From: a virus
Virus record (IMG/VR): IMGVR_UViG_3300007523_000062
Span: 1 to 28,321 of that record
Reading direction: 5' to 3' (one strand)
DNA length: 28,321 bases
Part shown: positions 134 to 28,321 of the stretch, piece by piece
How the letters are laid out: each line of letters starts with the position of its first letter
How positions within the stretch are numbered: the first letter of the stretch is position 1
The notes under the pieces: generated by a model
Seen by the model: only the letters and a program-made list of their open reading frames with translations
Databases searched by the model: none
What the model was told of the DNA's origin: nothing
Program-made: the position numbers and the translations under genes

Positions 134-802
134 CTACTTTGAGCCGGGATTTTTTTCTATATATTGAGTTGATGCTTTTATTAATTCAGTAAGAAAAAAA
201 GCGTCAATAAGGTCATCAATTGGCTTTGGTACTTTTTTATTATCATAGCCTATATTGTCTCTACAATATTCTACAAGTGGAATATTATGTGCATATTTAT
301 TATCCAAGAAGAATGGCCATATAGCCTCCTTATTCATATTACCTTTGTTAATGAATTTTTTAATAGTACTTGGAGCAATAGTCAACATATCTACAACTTC
401 AAGTCTCTCTATCATTTGCATCTTTAATATAGCAGCTCCAGCAGCCAAATCAATTATATTATTCGTACCGCCGCTTGAGCCATAGCTTGAGCCTTCGAAC
501 GAAACAATACAAGGGACGTCTGCTCCAGTGATTTCAATAATCATATCTATTATTGTTTTAGAAGTATGTGAATGTCTTAAAACTTTAATCATTTCACTCT
601 TAGAATAATCTGCATTATTAGTCCAGTCCGGTTGATGCACTATTTGAACATTATCTAAGAGATTTAATTCCCCTTGAATTTTTTGTTCTGCCTTCGTGCC
701 AGTTCCCGGCTTAAGGTACCCGATAAAATGATAAAAGTTGCTCTCAGTAAATATACAGATTCCTGGAGAATTGAGAGAAAAATCAATTGAGATGAAGTTC
801 AT
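134..802 (-). CDS. RuvC-like Holliday junction resolvase (RNase H fold)
   Basis: The 222-aa protein has the layout of a RuvC-type nuclease. The first strand carries D7 in ISIDFSLNSPGICIF, a central strand carries E103 in IVSFEGSSYG, and a C-terminal helix carries an acidic cluster, PIDDLIDAF (D196, D197, D200). K148 and nearby lysines precede that helix. This arrangement of one Asp, one Glu and late Asps is the metal-binding set of RuvC/RNase H resolvases, which cut four-way DNA junctions. In a T4-type phage the likely role is to resolve branched replicative DNA before packaging, the job done in T4 by the unrelated gp49. It is the last gene of the leftward run, 11 bases after its neighbour, with the A-rich leader TTAAAAAATAA before ATG. 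Related RNase H-fold nucleases cannot be excluded. Confidence 0.7.
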   Translation of the reverse strand: MNFISIDFSLNSPGICIFTESNFYHFIGYLKPGTGTKAEQKIQGELNLLDNVQIVHQPDWTNNADYSKSEMIKVLRHSHTSKTIIDMIIEITGADVPCIVSFEGSSYGSSGGTNNIIDLAAGAAILKMQMIERLEVVDMLTIAPSTIKKFINKGNMNKEAIWPFFLDNKYAHNIPLVEYCRDNIGYDNKKVPKPIDDLIDAFFLTELIKASTQYIEKNPGSK

Positions 803-813
803 TTATTTTTTAA

Positions 814-1182
814 TTAGACACGAGATCCCAAAGCGCTCCCCAAAGCAGCTCCCACAAGTCGGCTGGTGAGCATTTCGAACATTATACCCGATTGAATTCC
901 TAGAATATTTGCTATGGTTTTACCTATAGTTTTACCAAGTGCAAAACCGACTAGCCCTCCAAATATAGAACCTAAAAGTCCTTCGTTAGTAAGGTCTTCG
1001 TTAAATGCAGAAATATCGTAAGATCCATCACTGTTTCTGTACTTCTTTGAAAATTCCTCTAATGCAGCATCTACCTTAAATTCTAATTCCTCAGTCCATT
1101 CCGATTGAAGTGACTCATTTAGAATTGACATTTCTTCATTGGTAATATTTTGCCCCTCTAAGTATTCTAAAAATGTTTTCAT
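814..1182 (-). CDS. Small protein with capsid-targeting-like N-terminus and glycine-zipper C-terminus
   Basis: The 122-aa protein begins MKTFLEYLEG, close to the T4 capsid-targeting sequence (IPIII begins MKTYQEFIAE). The motif L21-N22-E23 before S24 fits the [L/I]-x-E cleavage rule of the T4 prohead protease. Residues 24-66 are acidic and probably helical. The C-terminus is hydrophobic and glycine-rich: residues 68-95 include GSIFGGLVGFALGKTIGKTI and residues 109-121 include LVGAALGSALGS, spacing typical of glycine zippers that pack in membranes. I infer a head-internal protein whose mature part could enter the host membrane during DNA entry. The alternative is a small membrane protein such as a lysis or superinfection factor. 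It starts 2 bases after the 97-aa gene, which shares the same N-terminal signature. Confidence 0.55.
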   Translation of the reverse strand: MKTFLEYLEGQNITNEEMSILNESLQSEWTEELEFKVDAALEEFSKKYRNSDGSYDISAFNEDLTNEGLLGSIFGGLVGFALGKTIGKTIANILGIQSGIMFEMLTSRLVGAALGSALGSRV

Positions 1183-1184
1183 AA

Positions 1185-1478
1185 TTATTTAATTTCTTTT
1201 GATATGTTTTCGACTAATTGCCATACGTCTATTTCAAAAACAATACCCGCCCCTTGATTTCCTAATCTAAACACAAATGCATCCTTTAAAGCTTTAATAT
1301 TGTTAATTCTATTAAGTATAAATTCAGCCATTTGATTTTTTGAATGAGAATCAAACGTCTTTGCGTCAGGAATAAAGGAAATGTACATCACCCCATTATT
1401 ATTATAATGAGTAATTGTAAACGTAAAGCCCTTTGAACTTAATTTAGCCTCGTTTATAAATGTATTAAATGTTTTCAT
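1185..1478 (-). CDS. Small protein with T4-like capsid-targeting N-terminus
   Basis: The 97-aa protein begins MKTFNTFINEAKLSSKG. This nearly matches the T4 internal-protein targeting peptide (MKTYQEFIAEA), including the position of I8-N9-E10 before A11, where T4 gp21 would cut. After the predicted cut the remaining 87 residues look like a small alpha/beta domain with alternating strands and one helix (about residues 46-67). I recognise no known fold or function. By analogy with T4 internal proteins it may be packaged with the DNA and delivered to the host, but it could equally be a scaffold or core component. The start is supported by the leader GATATATAATTAAATAAA directly before ATG. Confidence 0.55.
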   Translation of the reverse strand: MKTFNTFINEAKLSSKGFTFTITHYNNNGVMYISFIPDAKTFDSHSKNQMAEFILNRINNIKALKDAFVFRLGNQGAGIVFEIDVWQLVENISKEIK

Positions 1479-1497: not shown

Positions 1498-2049
1498 TTA
1501 GTCAATTTCTAGTACAATGTTAAATTTATTATAATAGAAGTTTAAATCAAATGTTGTAAACTCTGCTATGTTTGAACTCATATTTAATTCCAAATCGGAA
1601 ATTGAGTTTAAAATAGGTTTTTCAAATACTGCACTCATTATATGTATACCCTCTGCATCCATTATCTGTAATTTAACATCATTGATATATGGTTCTTTTA
1701 CGCCCTTCGAATAATAATACAAGAGAGTATCTTGCATAATCCAATAATTAATTAAACCATCTAATAATTGCATCGTAACTTTAAACTGCCTTTCAATAGT
1801 GTTTTGAATAGGTATTGAACCCCTATGATATGTTAAAGTACCATCATTTGGTGCAACTTCAATTGGATCAAACGATATTCCAGGAAGACCAACGCCTTGG
1901 ATTGAATAATTTATAAAATCAATTGGTTCTGTAATTAAATTACCTGGCATTCTGTTCAAATATTTTCTATATTTGTCAGCGACGTCCTTCGGTATAAATG
2001 TTCTTGGAAACTTAAAATTAAATAAGTTGTTTCTGCTGTTTAAAATCAT
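1498..2049 (-). CDS. Probable tail-tube-fold protein (gp19/gp54-like)
   Basis: The 183-aa protein is close to the length of T4 tail tube protein gp19 (163 aa). It shows the beta-rich pattern of tube-fold proteins: an N-terminal region with NYSIQGVGLPGISFDPIEV (about 47-65), a strand with basic residues before a helix (QFKVTMQLLDGLINYWIMQD, about 88-107), then strands KLQIMDAEGIHIMSAVFEKP and a C-terminal strand FTTFDLNFYYNKF. The helix with Trp followed by long strands resembles the tube monomer's central helix. I infer a tail tube or tube-initiating baseplate protein. The assignment rests on pattern, not a signature motif. It lies 1 base after the 696-aa structural gene. Confidence 0.45.
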   Translation of the reverse strand: MILNSRNNLFNFKFPRTFIPKDVADKYRKYLNRMPGNLITEPIDFINYSIQGVGLPGISFDPIEVAPNDGTLTYHRGSIPIQNTIERQFKVTMQLLDGLINYWIMQDTLLYYYSKGVKEPYINDVKLQIMDAEGIHIMSAVFEKPILNSISDLELNMSSNIAEFTTFDLNFYYNKFNIVLEID

Positions 2050-25429: not shown

Positions 25430-26722
25430 TTATATTGCTTTAGATTTAACAATTTCAACATTATTAAATTTAGCTAATTTTTTATCATACATACCTTCTC
25501 TAAATATGCCACCATTCATAGTTCCTTTAAATGTACCCTTACCATATACATAACAGTCAGTAGCGACACACGTTCCATGTACATATGACCCATCTAGCTT
25601 TGAAGAGTTTATTTGAGTACCTTTGTAAAAATTACAATAGTGAATATCAGAGCCATTAACATCGCATGAATATATATCGCAATTCTTGAATTCTCCTGTT
25701 AAAAAACAATTAATAAATTCATATCCTACTAAATCAACACAGTATTCAAGTCTACCGCCATTAACCTGTATTTTACCTGAATCTGAGTCATAGTTAATAT
25801 GTCCCTTTGAAAGATCTCCAAATGTGAATAATCTAATAACCGCATGTTTAACACTTGGCCAATAAAGATCTACAATCCTTGGATCTTCTTTTAAATCAAC
25901 AGTAAACTTAACATCCTTCCAATTATCTTTAATTGTCTTCCAATCCTTTCTAGCATCAATAATACGTTTATTTTCAGCAACTATCCTTTTAAGTTCAATT
26001 GAATTTAAAGTGTTAAACTCATTATTTTCTGATGAATTCCATATTTGCAATAGAAATTGGTCTAGAAGGTACAATATAGTTGATGTCTTCTTATGCCAAT
26101 CGGATCCTCCTATATACCTAAATTCAAGATAATTTTTATGTCTCTTGTCAAAATTAACGCCGTAATACTTAGAGTCAGGATATGTAAAGTTTTGTTGGTT
26201 TATATGATTACCATCAAAAAAGTAAGTATCTTCTTTTGGTATAATAAACTTAATAGATTTAGCGTATGCAGAATTTTCTCTTTTTGGAAAAAACTTAAAC
26301 ACTTGTTCTTCATTAAAATCTAAAATGAATTTAAGAACATTCATTTTAGAGATTCTGTATTTATTATCAATCTTAGATTTGTCAAAAGAAAGGTTTAAGT
26401 GAATTGATGTTCTATCATTCGTAGATCCATTTTCTTCTATCCACTGACATACATTAATAATCATTAGTCGCGCTGCATTATATGGAAGAGCGCCAGTTAC
26501 AAGTTCTAGCAGTTTTGCGCCTCCAGACATGTCTGGCTCTATTTTAAACGAGTCCTGTGTTACTTCAAAGTCACTATGTGCTTTAGTTTCAACATGAATT
26601 GTTTTGCCAAGCAGAACCGCTAGTTTTTTTGCAGTCTCATCTGCACTGAAATTTGAGAAAAATTCGAATTCAACCCCGCAAAGGGCATTTTGAAGAATGT
26701 GTACTGAATTAATATGATTCAT
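25430..26722 (-). CDS. Amidoligase-like (glutamine-synthetase fold) protein with Cys-rich pentapeptide-like tail
   Basis: Residues ~14-215 carry marks of the COOH-NH2 ligase (amidoligase) family: GVEFEFF (16-22, E18 and E20), D64 in KIEPDMSGG, LLELVTGALPYNAA (71-84, E73), H108 in SIHLNLS, and YLEFRYIGG (198-206, E200 and R202). These enzymes use ATP to join a carboxylate to an amine; the substrate here is unknown. Residues ~335-405 are built of five-residue steps (EFKNC, DIYSC, DVNGS, DIHYC, NFYKG), a pentapeptide-repeat or beta-helix-like tail with seven cysteines between 328 and 390. The gene sits among virion genes, so a role in modifying a virion protein or the cell wall is possible. Active-site assignment is by pattern only. 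Confidence 0.65.
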   Translation of the reverse strand: MNHINSVHILQNALCGVEFEFFSNFSADETAKKLAVLLGKTIHVETKAHSDFEVTQDSFKIEPDMSGGAKLLELVTGALPYNAARLMIINVCQWIEENGSTNDRTSIHLNLSFDKSKIDNKYRISKMNVLKFILDFNEEQVFKFFPKRENSAYAKSIKFIIPKEDTYFFDGNHINQQNFTYPDSKYYGVNFDKRHKNYLEFRYIGGSDWHKKTSTILYLLDQFLLQIWNSSENNEFNTLNSIELKRIVAENKRIIDARKDWKTIKDNWKDVKFTVDLKEDPRIVDLYWPSVKHAVIRLFTFGDLSKGHINYDSDSGKIQVNGGRLEYCVDLVGYEFINCFLTGEFKNCDIYSCDVNGSDIHYCNFYKGTQINSSKLDGSYVHGTCVATDCYVYGKGTFKGTMNGGIFREGMYDKKLAKFNNVEIVKSKAI

Positions 26723-26776: not shown

Positions 26777-27607
26777 TTAGATGCTATTGATAGCTTGCTC
26801 TATTTTATTTTGAATTTTAGCATTATTTTTAGAAATAACATCAATCCATTGTTGCAAACTTTTAATATTCATATATTTCCAATGAGATATATTGTATTGT
26901 TTTGACTTTTCACGTTCTGCATTAAAGAAATTCTCATCGTCATTATAATTTCCTGCAGCGCCTCTACCCAATATTACATCCCATGTAGGCCACTCTGAGT
27001 GTGGTTTGTTTTTTAAAGAACCATCTCCTTCTAAATATTTTTGCCAAATTTCTTCATCATTAAATTTAGAATTTATAGATATTATTTCCAGGTTTTTCTC
27101 TATTTGTCTATTATTAATTTCTACTTCTTTATTTAATTTTTCAAGTTTTGTTAGCTTCTTAATTTTATCTCCATATTCTTTAGTATCAGCGGTTTGGCCA
27201 GTGATCGGTAAATCTGTTGAAGTGATATATCTGTAATGTGCGATCTGAATATTAAAACCTCCGGCGATAATAACCTCGGTACTCAAACTATATGCAATAC
27301 CATCCCTTTGAATCTGTGCAGATATTTCTAAATTGCCTTTTCTAGAATGGCTTGCGCTTATTGATATGAGTGAATCTGAGGGCAATGTATATTTTTCTAT
27401 AGATTTAACCATGTCAAAGATTATGTTTAATCTAGTTAATTCCCTGTCATAAGATGTAAATACCATGTCGGATTTCTCCAAGTAGTATGCTTCAGTTTTA
27501 TTAACTAAATCTAAGATTGATGGTTCCAATGTGTCTAAAATAACGTTAATTATTCTGCCGCTATTCGATTCATTGATAAAATGCTGATATGTCTTTAAAT
27601 TACCCAT
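26777..27607 (-). CDS. Putative head-internal protein with capsid-targeting-like N-terminus
   Basis: The 276-aa protein begins MGNLKTYQHFINESNSGR. K5-T6-Y7-Q8-x-F10-I11 matches the T4 internal-protein targeting core (KTYQ-x-FI), and I11-N12-E13 before S14 fits the T4 prohead-protease rule. The rest is alpha/beta. There is a helical N-terminal half, strands at about 80-125 (ISISASHSRKGNLEISAQIQ, then AGGFNIQIAHYRYI), a coiled-coil helix (about 145-178, KLTKLEKLNKEVEINNRQIE) and a Trp-containing C-terminal part (PHSEWPTWDVILGRGAAGN). I recognise no enzymatic family. It is the first gene after the terminator at 27644-27672, so it starts a transcript. It could be an ejected effector, a core scaffold protein or a structural protein. 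Confidence 0.5.
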   Translation of the reverse strand: MGNLKTYQHFINESNSGRIINVILDTLEPSILDLVNKTEAYYLEKSDMVFTSYDRELTRLNIIFDMVKSIEKYTLPSDSLISISASHSRKGNLEISAQIQRDGIAYSLSTEVIIAGGFNIQIAHYRYITSTDLPITGQTADTKEYGDKIKKLTKLEKLNKEVEINNRQIEKNLEIISINSKFNDEEIWQKYLEGDGSLKNKPHSEWPTWDVILGRGAAGNYNDDENFFNAEREKSKQYNISHWKYMNIKSLQQWIDVISKNNAKIQNKIEQAINSI

Positions 27608-27702: not shown

Positions 27703-28321
27703 TTATAGTTTCAAGAACACCTTTCTAGTGGAAACATCTATACGCGTAATTTGAACTGTTATGTTATCACCATTCACTAGAGAATCTATTTTAATTTCGT
27801 CTGGCAATTCCGATACATGAAGTAATCCAATAATGCCTGCTCCAATATCTACAAATACCCCGTATTCTTTAATGGATTTAATAGTTCCTCTTACCTCTAC
27901 TGGAAATGCAGTATACCTTGTAATAACATCAGCCCATGGGTCTATTATTTCAACATGTTCAAGTTGAGTAAGCATGATTTTAGTATCACTAATTACTTCT
28001 TTTACTCTGAACTCAATAATATCGCCTGGGTTAATTTCTCTATTTTGTTGTTTTTTAGCCATTTCTGGATTTAAGTCGTTTGTGTATATCATTCCTGTTA
28101 AACAATTGTCAAACCCAACAAACACACCATATTTAGTAGAACCTGTAACCACTCCTTCTTTCATTTCTCCATAATTGTTTATAAGGTTCTCAACTGCACC
28201 TGGAATCAACGCCTGTAAATATTTTCTATGTGATACTATTACTGTTCCTTTTTCTGGAGAGTAGCTCATTGGAACAACATATAACTGTGTATTAATTAAT
28301 ACATCAAAGTATACTAGTTTA
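27703..28321 (-). CDS. Multi-S1-domain RNA-binding protein (5' end outside window)
   Basis: Two complete S1 domains are visible. Counting from the Met codon at 28269, the first covers ~34-105 (EGVVTGSTKYGVFVGFDNCL, then TGMIYTNDL) and the second ~122-188 (VEVRGTIKSIKEYGVFVDIG, then GLLHVSEL). The Y-G-V-F-V and G-[ML]-[IL]...[ND/SE]-L patterns are characteristic of ribosomal protein S1 repeats. The frame stays open past that Met to the edge of the window (17 more codons, beginning KLVYFDV), there is no A-rich leader before the Met, and VSHRK looks like the end of an earlier S1 repeat. The gene therefore starts outside the window. A phage S1-like protein could steer ribosomes to phage mRNA or act in RNA turnover. 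Followed by a terminator. Confidence 0.85.
   Translation of the reverse strand, partial: KLVYFDVLINTQLYVVPMSYSPEKGTVIVSHRKYLQALIPGAVENLINNYGEMKEGVVTGSTKYGVFVGFDNCLTGMIYTNDLNPEMAKKQQNREINPGDIIEFRVKEVISDTKIMLTQLEHVEIIDPWADVITRYTAFPVEVRGTIKSIKEYGVFVDIGAGIIGLLHVSELPDEIKIDSLVNGDNITVQITRIDVSTRKVFLKL

Follow-up and report, generated by a model that had tools for sequence, protein, structure and literature searches.

The window analysed here (28,321 nucleotides, the whole of a 28-kb fragment recorded as IMGVR_UViG_3300007523_000062) carries two adjacent small genes on its minus strand, flanked on that strand by two syntenic markers: a tail tube gene upstream (1498..2049; phrog_45, E = 2.2e-9) and a gene for a RuvC-like Holliday junction resolvase downstream (134..802; phrog_159, E = 4.5e-12). 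Both open reading frames lie where the original prediction had put them, with a 97-aa protein (p97) encoded at 1185..1478 and a 122-aa protein (p122) at 814..1182. A third gene with the same kind of N-terminus, encoding p276, is found at 26777..27607 (minus strand). Elsewhere the window holds tail and baseplate genes, such as those for a gp6-like wedge (phrog_219, E = 7e-38) and a gp25-like wedge; an ORF among the baseplate genes (25430-26722) combines an amidoligase-like N-terminus (PF12224, E = 3e-7) with pentapeptide-like C-terminal repeats, and another ORF, beside p276 (27703-28269), encodes a phage protein with two S1 RNA-binding domains (PF00575, E = 5e-21). At the extreme end of the contig (3-106), a 35-base unit is repeated three times, perfectly and head-to-tail, possibly as an assembly edge.

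No DNA-level similarity of the window to described phages was found. Its wedge protein is 41% identical to that of LR756500.1 (462 kb), a metagenomic huge phage, and has weaker matches in other 634-735 kb records, the Lak phages and Tenacibaculum phage pT24. Judged by protein comparison, the source phage is placed near the metagenomic huge phages, and its kinship with Prevotella and Tenacibaculum phages suggests a host among the Bacteroidota. The tail tube query recovered 245 related stretches from IMG/VR, of which 80 loci (on contigs of up to 236 kb) were kept. Two contigs (G016, IMGVR 3300027976_002258; G017, IMGVR 3300032462_000111) are 99.8-99.9% identical to the window across 14-18 kb, and all three evidently represent the same phage.

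The original prediction rested on a resemblance between the N-termini of p97 and p122 and the capsid-targeting sequences (CTS) of T4 internal proteins. Mutagenesis of T4 IPIII has assigned targeting to positions 4 and 7 and processing to positions 8 and 10, under the rule L/I-X-E (PMC9026906). The start attributed to IPIII, MKTYQEFIAE before A, was confirmed in the T4 genome (NC_000866), where IPII begins in the same way. The p97 leader, MKTFNTFINE (1449..1478), matches at all four positions, with aromatic F4 and F7, hydrophobic I8 and E10, and is followed by the small residue A11 (predicted cut E10/A11; here and below, a slash after E marks the cut). A degenerate pattern, MKT[FY]xx[FY][ILV]xE, has three matches in the whole T4 genome: ipII, ipIII and the 54-aa gene 61.1. 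The latter (NC_000866 18966-19130, hypothetical) has a CTS-like start, MKTFKEFIKE, and may encode a further T4 internal protein.

Homologues of p97 were recovered from three of the 80 tail-tube loci (L021-L023), always between tail tube and p122, and from one further contig. The leader is kept in them: in an alignment of four homologues M1, K2, T3, F4, I8, N9 and E10 do not vary and P1' is occupied by A or G, at a whole-protein identity of only 33-35%. One homologue (G018:193637-193945, IMGVR 3300012346_000380; 42% identity, E = 4e-23) has a longer leader, MKHTTNFESFINE/A, with the same FINE/A ending, and is part of an array of about 15 genes, nearly all leader-bearing. In the AlphaFold model of p97 (pLDDT 70), residues 1-8 are disordered and a compact beta-alpha domain has its first strand from residue 11, as expected if residues 1-10 are removable; we regard p97 as an accessory protein, predicted to be packaged in the capsid and processed to an 87-aa alpha/beta domain. 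A fold search of the PDB with this model gave no match at E <= 0.001 (IPI* was not among the 50 best), profile searches with p97 and p122 against the PDB sequences returned nothing, and Pfam and PHROGs gave only weak matches to p97, with no recognised domain. The similarity of its residues 1-21 to phrog_2667 'internal head protein' (E = 0.063) was too weak to count.

The two mature parts are unrelated, as had been proposed (the p97 and p122 bodies fall into separate BLAST clusters), and p122 has quite another distribution. It is present beside the tail tube gene in 81 of 81 sequences, in the constant order tail tube - p122 - RuvC-like resolvase (the resolvase adjoins it in relatives too), and measures 120-122 aa where complete; with constant length and place in all 81 loci, it is not an accessory, variable gene. 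Its leader-like start, MKTFLEYLEG (1153..1182), has G at position 10 in the window, while relatives have mostly E10, then mostly Q or E. Because position 10 is not E here and varies elsewhere, processing at residue 10 is not conserved, and with G10 only the site at 21-24 of the N-terminus fits the cleavage rule in the window. The original prediction therefore holds for the second p122 element, L21-N22-E23/S24 (site 1, 1111..1122), which follows the rule and is conserved, but not for a complete T4-type leader. At site 1, each of the 44 distinct sequences has L-x-E-S (or, once, L-x-E-A), where x is N, T, Q, K or E.

Beyond what had been predicted, a second site, T65-N-E67/G68 (site 2, 979..990), reads T-N-E-G in 44 of 44 distinct sequences, with a T at P3 that departs from L/I-x-E. 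Both sites are kept in G018, G020, G022 and G023; the counterpart of site 2 is INE/G in LR756500 (48% identity) and VDE/G in Lak-C1, and the Lak homologue can be aligned only from about site 2 onward. After E67 follows a glycine-rich helical segment, shared with LR756500 and the Lak phages; this glycine-zipper C-terminal domain (817..981; PF13488, E = 7e-4, under the Pfam cut-off) is the sole part kept in Lak phages and the predicted mature product. The structure model of p122 (pLDDT 51) was too low for use. Considering the constant length and position, and the conserved glycine-zipper C-terminus, we favour the reading that p122 is a conserved core head or ejection component, putatively processed and membrane-active, and not a variable effector. 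The conservation around both sites (ESLQSEW, TNEG) is wide and could instead be structural, which, together with the constant position after the tail tube gene, would suit a tail or baseplate-assembly protein whose helices and glycine zipper serve the tail or a membrane without proteolysis. We consider this unlikely in view of the two invariant x-x-E/small sites, the CTS-like start, and the position of the Lak-C1 homologue, about 4.4 kb from the protease domain; the tail tube gene of T4 (gene 19), moreover, itself adjoins head genes. The core head or ejection component remains our preferred reading of p122.

The leader of p276, likewise not part of the original prediction, comprises residues 1-13 (27569..27607), MGNLKTYQHFINE/S, with the ending INE/S. 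Across 38 related loci the start follows K[TS][YF]xxF[ILV]NE/S with few exceptions, and P3 changes only among I, L and V in nearly all of them. The homologue in pT24 is leaderless, and that in G022 (located among other leader genes) has an alternative leader, MKTVKLFEQFVNE/S, with a VNE/S ending; hence, the leader appears to be a module.

A prohead protease of the T4 gp21 type (Peptidase_S77, PF03420; positive control T4, E = 4e-113) accompanies these genes in relatives. Of the first 15 tested, the 11 with 145 kb or more all had it above cut-off, and none of the four fragments below 95 kb did; G018 and G020 bring the long p122/p276-bearing relatives with the protease to 13, and LR756500 and Lak-C1 have it as well. 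It was not found in the 111-kb G019 (a distant contig bearing only a distant p276 homologue), on the two contigs near-identical to the window, or on the 28-kb window, which stops short of the portal/protease region; as the window is a fragment, this absence does not refute the original prediction. Contig G021 (IMGVR 3300032462_000022), from the metagenome that also yielded G017 (99.86% identical to the window) and of similar G+C (0.317 vs 0.319 in G017), holds the portal gene, the protease fusion, the capsid gene and several leader genes, including MKTFNDFINE/S just after the capsid gene; G021 is a candidate segment that likely belongs to the same phage as the window.

In relatives, the protease is the N-terminal part of an ORF of about 600-690 aa (phrog_207 head maturation protease, E = 1.5e-40), which adjoins the genes for the portal (phrog_213, E = 1.7e-69) and the major head protein (phrog_138, E = 5.7e-41). 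Its His and Ser motifs (the LDHP and SSR segments) can be aligned to those of T4 gp21, and the protease domain terminates in a conserved [VI]NE/[AS], the motif that also ends the leaders. In most relatives, the small gene that separates portal and protease begins with KTFEQF or KTFEEF, and in G018, G022 and G023 with IKTFEQFIFE before A or N; in T4, this interval is occupied by core genes 67 and 68. The single-ORF fusion of protease and scaffold-like region (L091:5510-7432 and homologues) contains repeat-like acidic inserts whose length differs from relative to relative. A second, short Peptidase_S77-like ORF (G001:156286-156684, 132 aa; PF03420, E = 1.7e-8) lies far from the head cluster and recurs in two near-identical contigs. 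The alignment of major capsid proteins offered LYE before D or N and IIE before S or G as candidate cleavage sites, neither of them clear, and these were excluded from the evidence.

The extent of leader use was surveyed in seven of the longest relatives, read whole, and in LR756500, with the motif [FY]xx[FYW][ILVM]xE[ASGNTQ] starting in the first residues of simple longest-ATG frames and with expectations drawn from the internal density of the motif. We stress that inspection preceded the choice of this motif; it fixes four positions, those known from T4 IPIII mutagenesis (PMC9026906). Further proteins starting in this way, for which a search had originally been suggested, are p276 in the window and 3-17 motif proteins per genome in relatives, against 0.1-0.4 expected (observed/expected: G004 17/0.12, LR756500 16/0.39, G001 15/0.41, G018 11/0.30, G005 10/0.19, G007 9/0.28, G010 6/0.29, G020 3/0.24). 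Among control genomes, T4 yielded two (IPII and IPIII), phiKZ, pT24 and Lak-C1 (320 kb) none, and P-SSM2 four, two of which are CTS-like. These two P-SSM2 proteins (NC_006883 100269-100529 and 158143-159417) start MKSFKQFLEEA and MKSFSQFLTET, and it may be that CTS-like leaders label cyanophage head proteins, too.

When the sequences behind the leader were compared by BLAST, 134 leader proteins fell into 66 families, and in an alignment of 51 of them the leader alone (MKxIKLFExFxNE) was common to all. Its usual form is MK[HK][IV]K[LT][FY]E[QED][FY][ILV]NE, then mostly A, S or G. Leader genes are often in tandem, as in G018:193196-200277, where nearly all of about 15 successive genes (including the p97 homologue) carry one. 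A pattern scan of IMG/VR gave, among the matches listed, up to five on one 9-kb stretch and at least 47 more families. Since the search pattern itself constrained P1', the P1' statistics of the pattern-selected set were discarded, and the cut site was evaluated with N-terminal [FY]xx[FYW][ILVM] only, leaving the downstream residues free. E then occupied P1 in 126 of 182 distinct N-terminal cases, compared to 120 of 997 internal ones (odds ratio 16), and was followed by A, S or G in 71/126 N-terminal and 26/120 internal cases (P1' is another residue in 44% of N-terminal cases with E). The p-values of this test overstate, as orthologues were removed solely by exact 15-residue identity; the effect is large regardless.

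We reason that capsid targeting and prohead-protease processing are well supported as predictions, given the conserved leaders, the retention of P3, P1 and P1' alongside a variable P2, the finding of the protease in almost every long relative and the leader on the small protein encoded between portal and protease. Two other explanations of the shared N-terminus were weighed against these data. The leader could be a tag for another site in the cell (e.g., a replication compartment or a membrane), its E-[ASG] end being incidental or cut by a host protease; several leader proteins are indeed enzymes (ATP-grasp, AAA ATPase, GNAT, nucleotidyltransferase-like) that need not be in the virion. This we find quite improbable, as conservation picks out the same positions that are important in the T4 CTS (PMC9026906), the gene lying between portal and protease has the same leader, the protease fusion shares the [VI]NE/[AS] motif, and the same regular expression recovers T4 IPII and IPIII and gives none in phages of other head types. 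The tandem arrays and quick turnover of bodies could also indicate a recombination handle or a footprint of paralogy, with bodies exchanged at a conserved 5' end, in which case the leader would play no part in targeting. That the leader is such a handle alone seems highly improbable: constraint falls on the aromatic, hydrophobic, E and small positions and not on the rest, P3 of p276 varies among I, L and V only, and p122 and p276 are single-copy conserved genes that retain the leader; besides, body swapping and targeting are compatible with each other. Hence, we consider it probable, on comparative sequence grounds, that these N-termini serve as T4-type capsid-targeting sequences, p97 being a member of a repertoire and p122 a core component, with packaging, cleavage and injection as the predicted consequences.

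Most bodies behind the leader are without a known domain. The Acb1 anti-CBASS family (PF23474) was detected above cut-off on leader proteins of five relatives (G018:198662-199201, equivalent to L233:18662-19201; G007:3684-4226; G001:205091-205342; G004:2655-2903; G022:155484-155738), with two HxT motifs where inspected and matches of about 30 bits, compared to 202 bits for T4 Acb1 itself. Other bodies resemble a zeta-toxin-like P-loop kinase, GNAT, PNK3P-like phosphatase, CHAP and cytidylyltransferase-like domains, and those of LR756500 include LRR proteins and a DUF2201 metallopeptidase/VWA protein. The leucine-rich repeat proteins (LR756500.1 13446-14282, 180972-181730, 198758-199531 and 331856-332545) recall secreted effectors of bacteria. 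Some long leader proteins are conserved across genomes (ATP-grasp, AAA ATPase and a 913-aa protein); thus, not all leader proteins need be anti-defence proteins, and the long or enzymatic ones, being less typical of small injected inhibitors, count against so general a reading.

In T4, IP1-3 each inhibit a different GmrSD nuclease, and internal proteins number three in T4 and at least ten kinds across the T-evens (PMC12373910). The original prediction had placed both p97 and p122 in the class of IPI*, as possible effectors. For p97 this assignment fits, since most relatives lack the gene, its body evolves quickly and one homologue is arrayed with an Acb1-like enzyme; for p122, an invariant core gene, it does not. 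As no PDB fold match was obtained at E <= 0.001, the function of p97 is judged from its company only, and we favour an injected anti-defence or takeover protein by analogy. Alternatively, p97 might be packaged yet structural or inert, as a DNA-condensing or filler internal protein and no anti-defence effector, which would agree with its lack of a recognised domain and with the implication of T4 IPIII in head morphogenesis (PMC9026906); sporadic presence, quick divergence and the Acb1-like and other enzymes in the homologous array make this alternative possible but doubtful.

The sequence of events that we propose for the preferred reading starts, by extension from T4 biology, with the leader aromatics (4 and 7 in MKTFNTF) binding the prohead core, such that the protein would be enclosed at shell formation. 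The scaffold-fused gp21-type protease would then cut [L/I/V]-x-E before A, S or G (a step strongly backed by conservation), leaving the mature protein inside the head, and the DNA would carry the mature proteins along into the host. In this scheme p97 would be one of a large and fast-changing repertoire, in a clade that joins unrelated bodies to one type of leader, and its most likely role, considering T4 IPI-III and the Acb1-like members, would be to blunt host defence or to aid early takeover. The same targeting and protease would act on p122, where cuts at E23/S24 and E67/G68 would release a glycine-zipper domain of 55 residues; this would most likely be a head or ejection component with membrane activity at DNA entry.

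For this clade of uncultured huge phages as a whole, we lean towards the 10-14 residue leader being a loading tag for a modular, fast-changing packaged arsenal, released by the protease-scaffold protein and injected with the genome, a preloaded anti-CBASS-type enzyme included. The arsenal behind this reading comprises as many as about 17 genes with the motif in a genome and, in the sample examined, more than 100 body families, nearly all without known function. Injected proteins act ahead of phage gene expression, which makes them prime suspects for disabling first-line bacterial defences, but with no similarity between their bodies they are difficult to recognise. Here, the leader appears to label them: if the reading is true, it alone would list hundreds of candidate anti-defence or takeover proteins from metagenomes, turn unknown genes of huge phages into a testable list, give genes such as p97 a concrete function class, and enlarge the T4 internal-protein principle far beyond T4.

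That principle is itself already known from T4. Nothing in the literature searched (most subscription papers and preprints were outside its scope) describes this leader or such a repertoire for huge phages, and as far as that literature shows, novelty lies in how large the repertoire is, in its presence in this huge-phage clade, in the Acb1-like leader member and in the two-site glycine-zipper core protein.

Among known systems, the inner-body and ejection proteins of phiKZ and SPN3US are comparable in that giant phages package head proteins processed C-terminal to E (here as a prediction), but their propeptides often exceed 100 residues, the SPN3US motif is A-x-E (PMC5694885), and phiKZ has no N-terminal match to this leader. 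The Acb1-like leader proteins share with the anti-CBASS phosphoesterase Acb1 (PF23474) a match above cut-off and the two HxT motifs; those of the relatives, unlike T4 Acb1, have a CTS-like leader. To our knowledge, T4 Acb1 has not been described as an internal protein. The protease corresponds to T4 gp21 in its above-cut-off Pfam match, its LDHP/LNHP and SSR segments and its gene position between portal and major capsid protein, whereas the separate gp21 and gp22 of T4 are replaced here by one ORF of 600-690 aa with protease and scaffold-like region. The closest parallel is offered by T4 IPI, IPII and IPIII (Straboviridae), with their 10-residue leader, aromatic residues at 4 and 7, I or L at 8, and E10 followed by A. 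In contrast to that length, the commonest leader here has 13 residues (MKHIKLFEQFINE), and, instead of the three internal proteins of T4, relatives have 3-17 motif-positive proteins per genome, with about 65 body families in eight of them. As with the T4 internal proteins, unrelated bodies are coupled to a gp21-type protease, in a set that varies between relatives.
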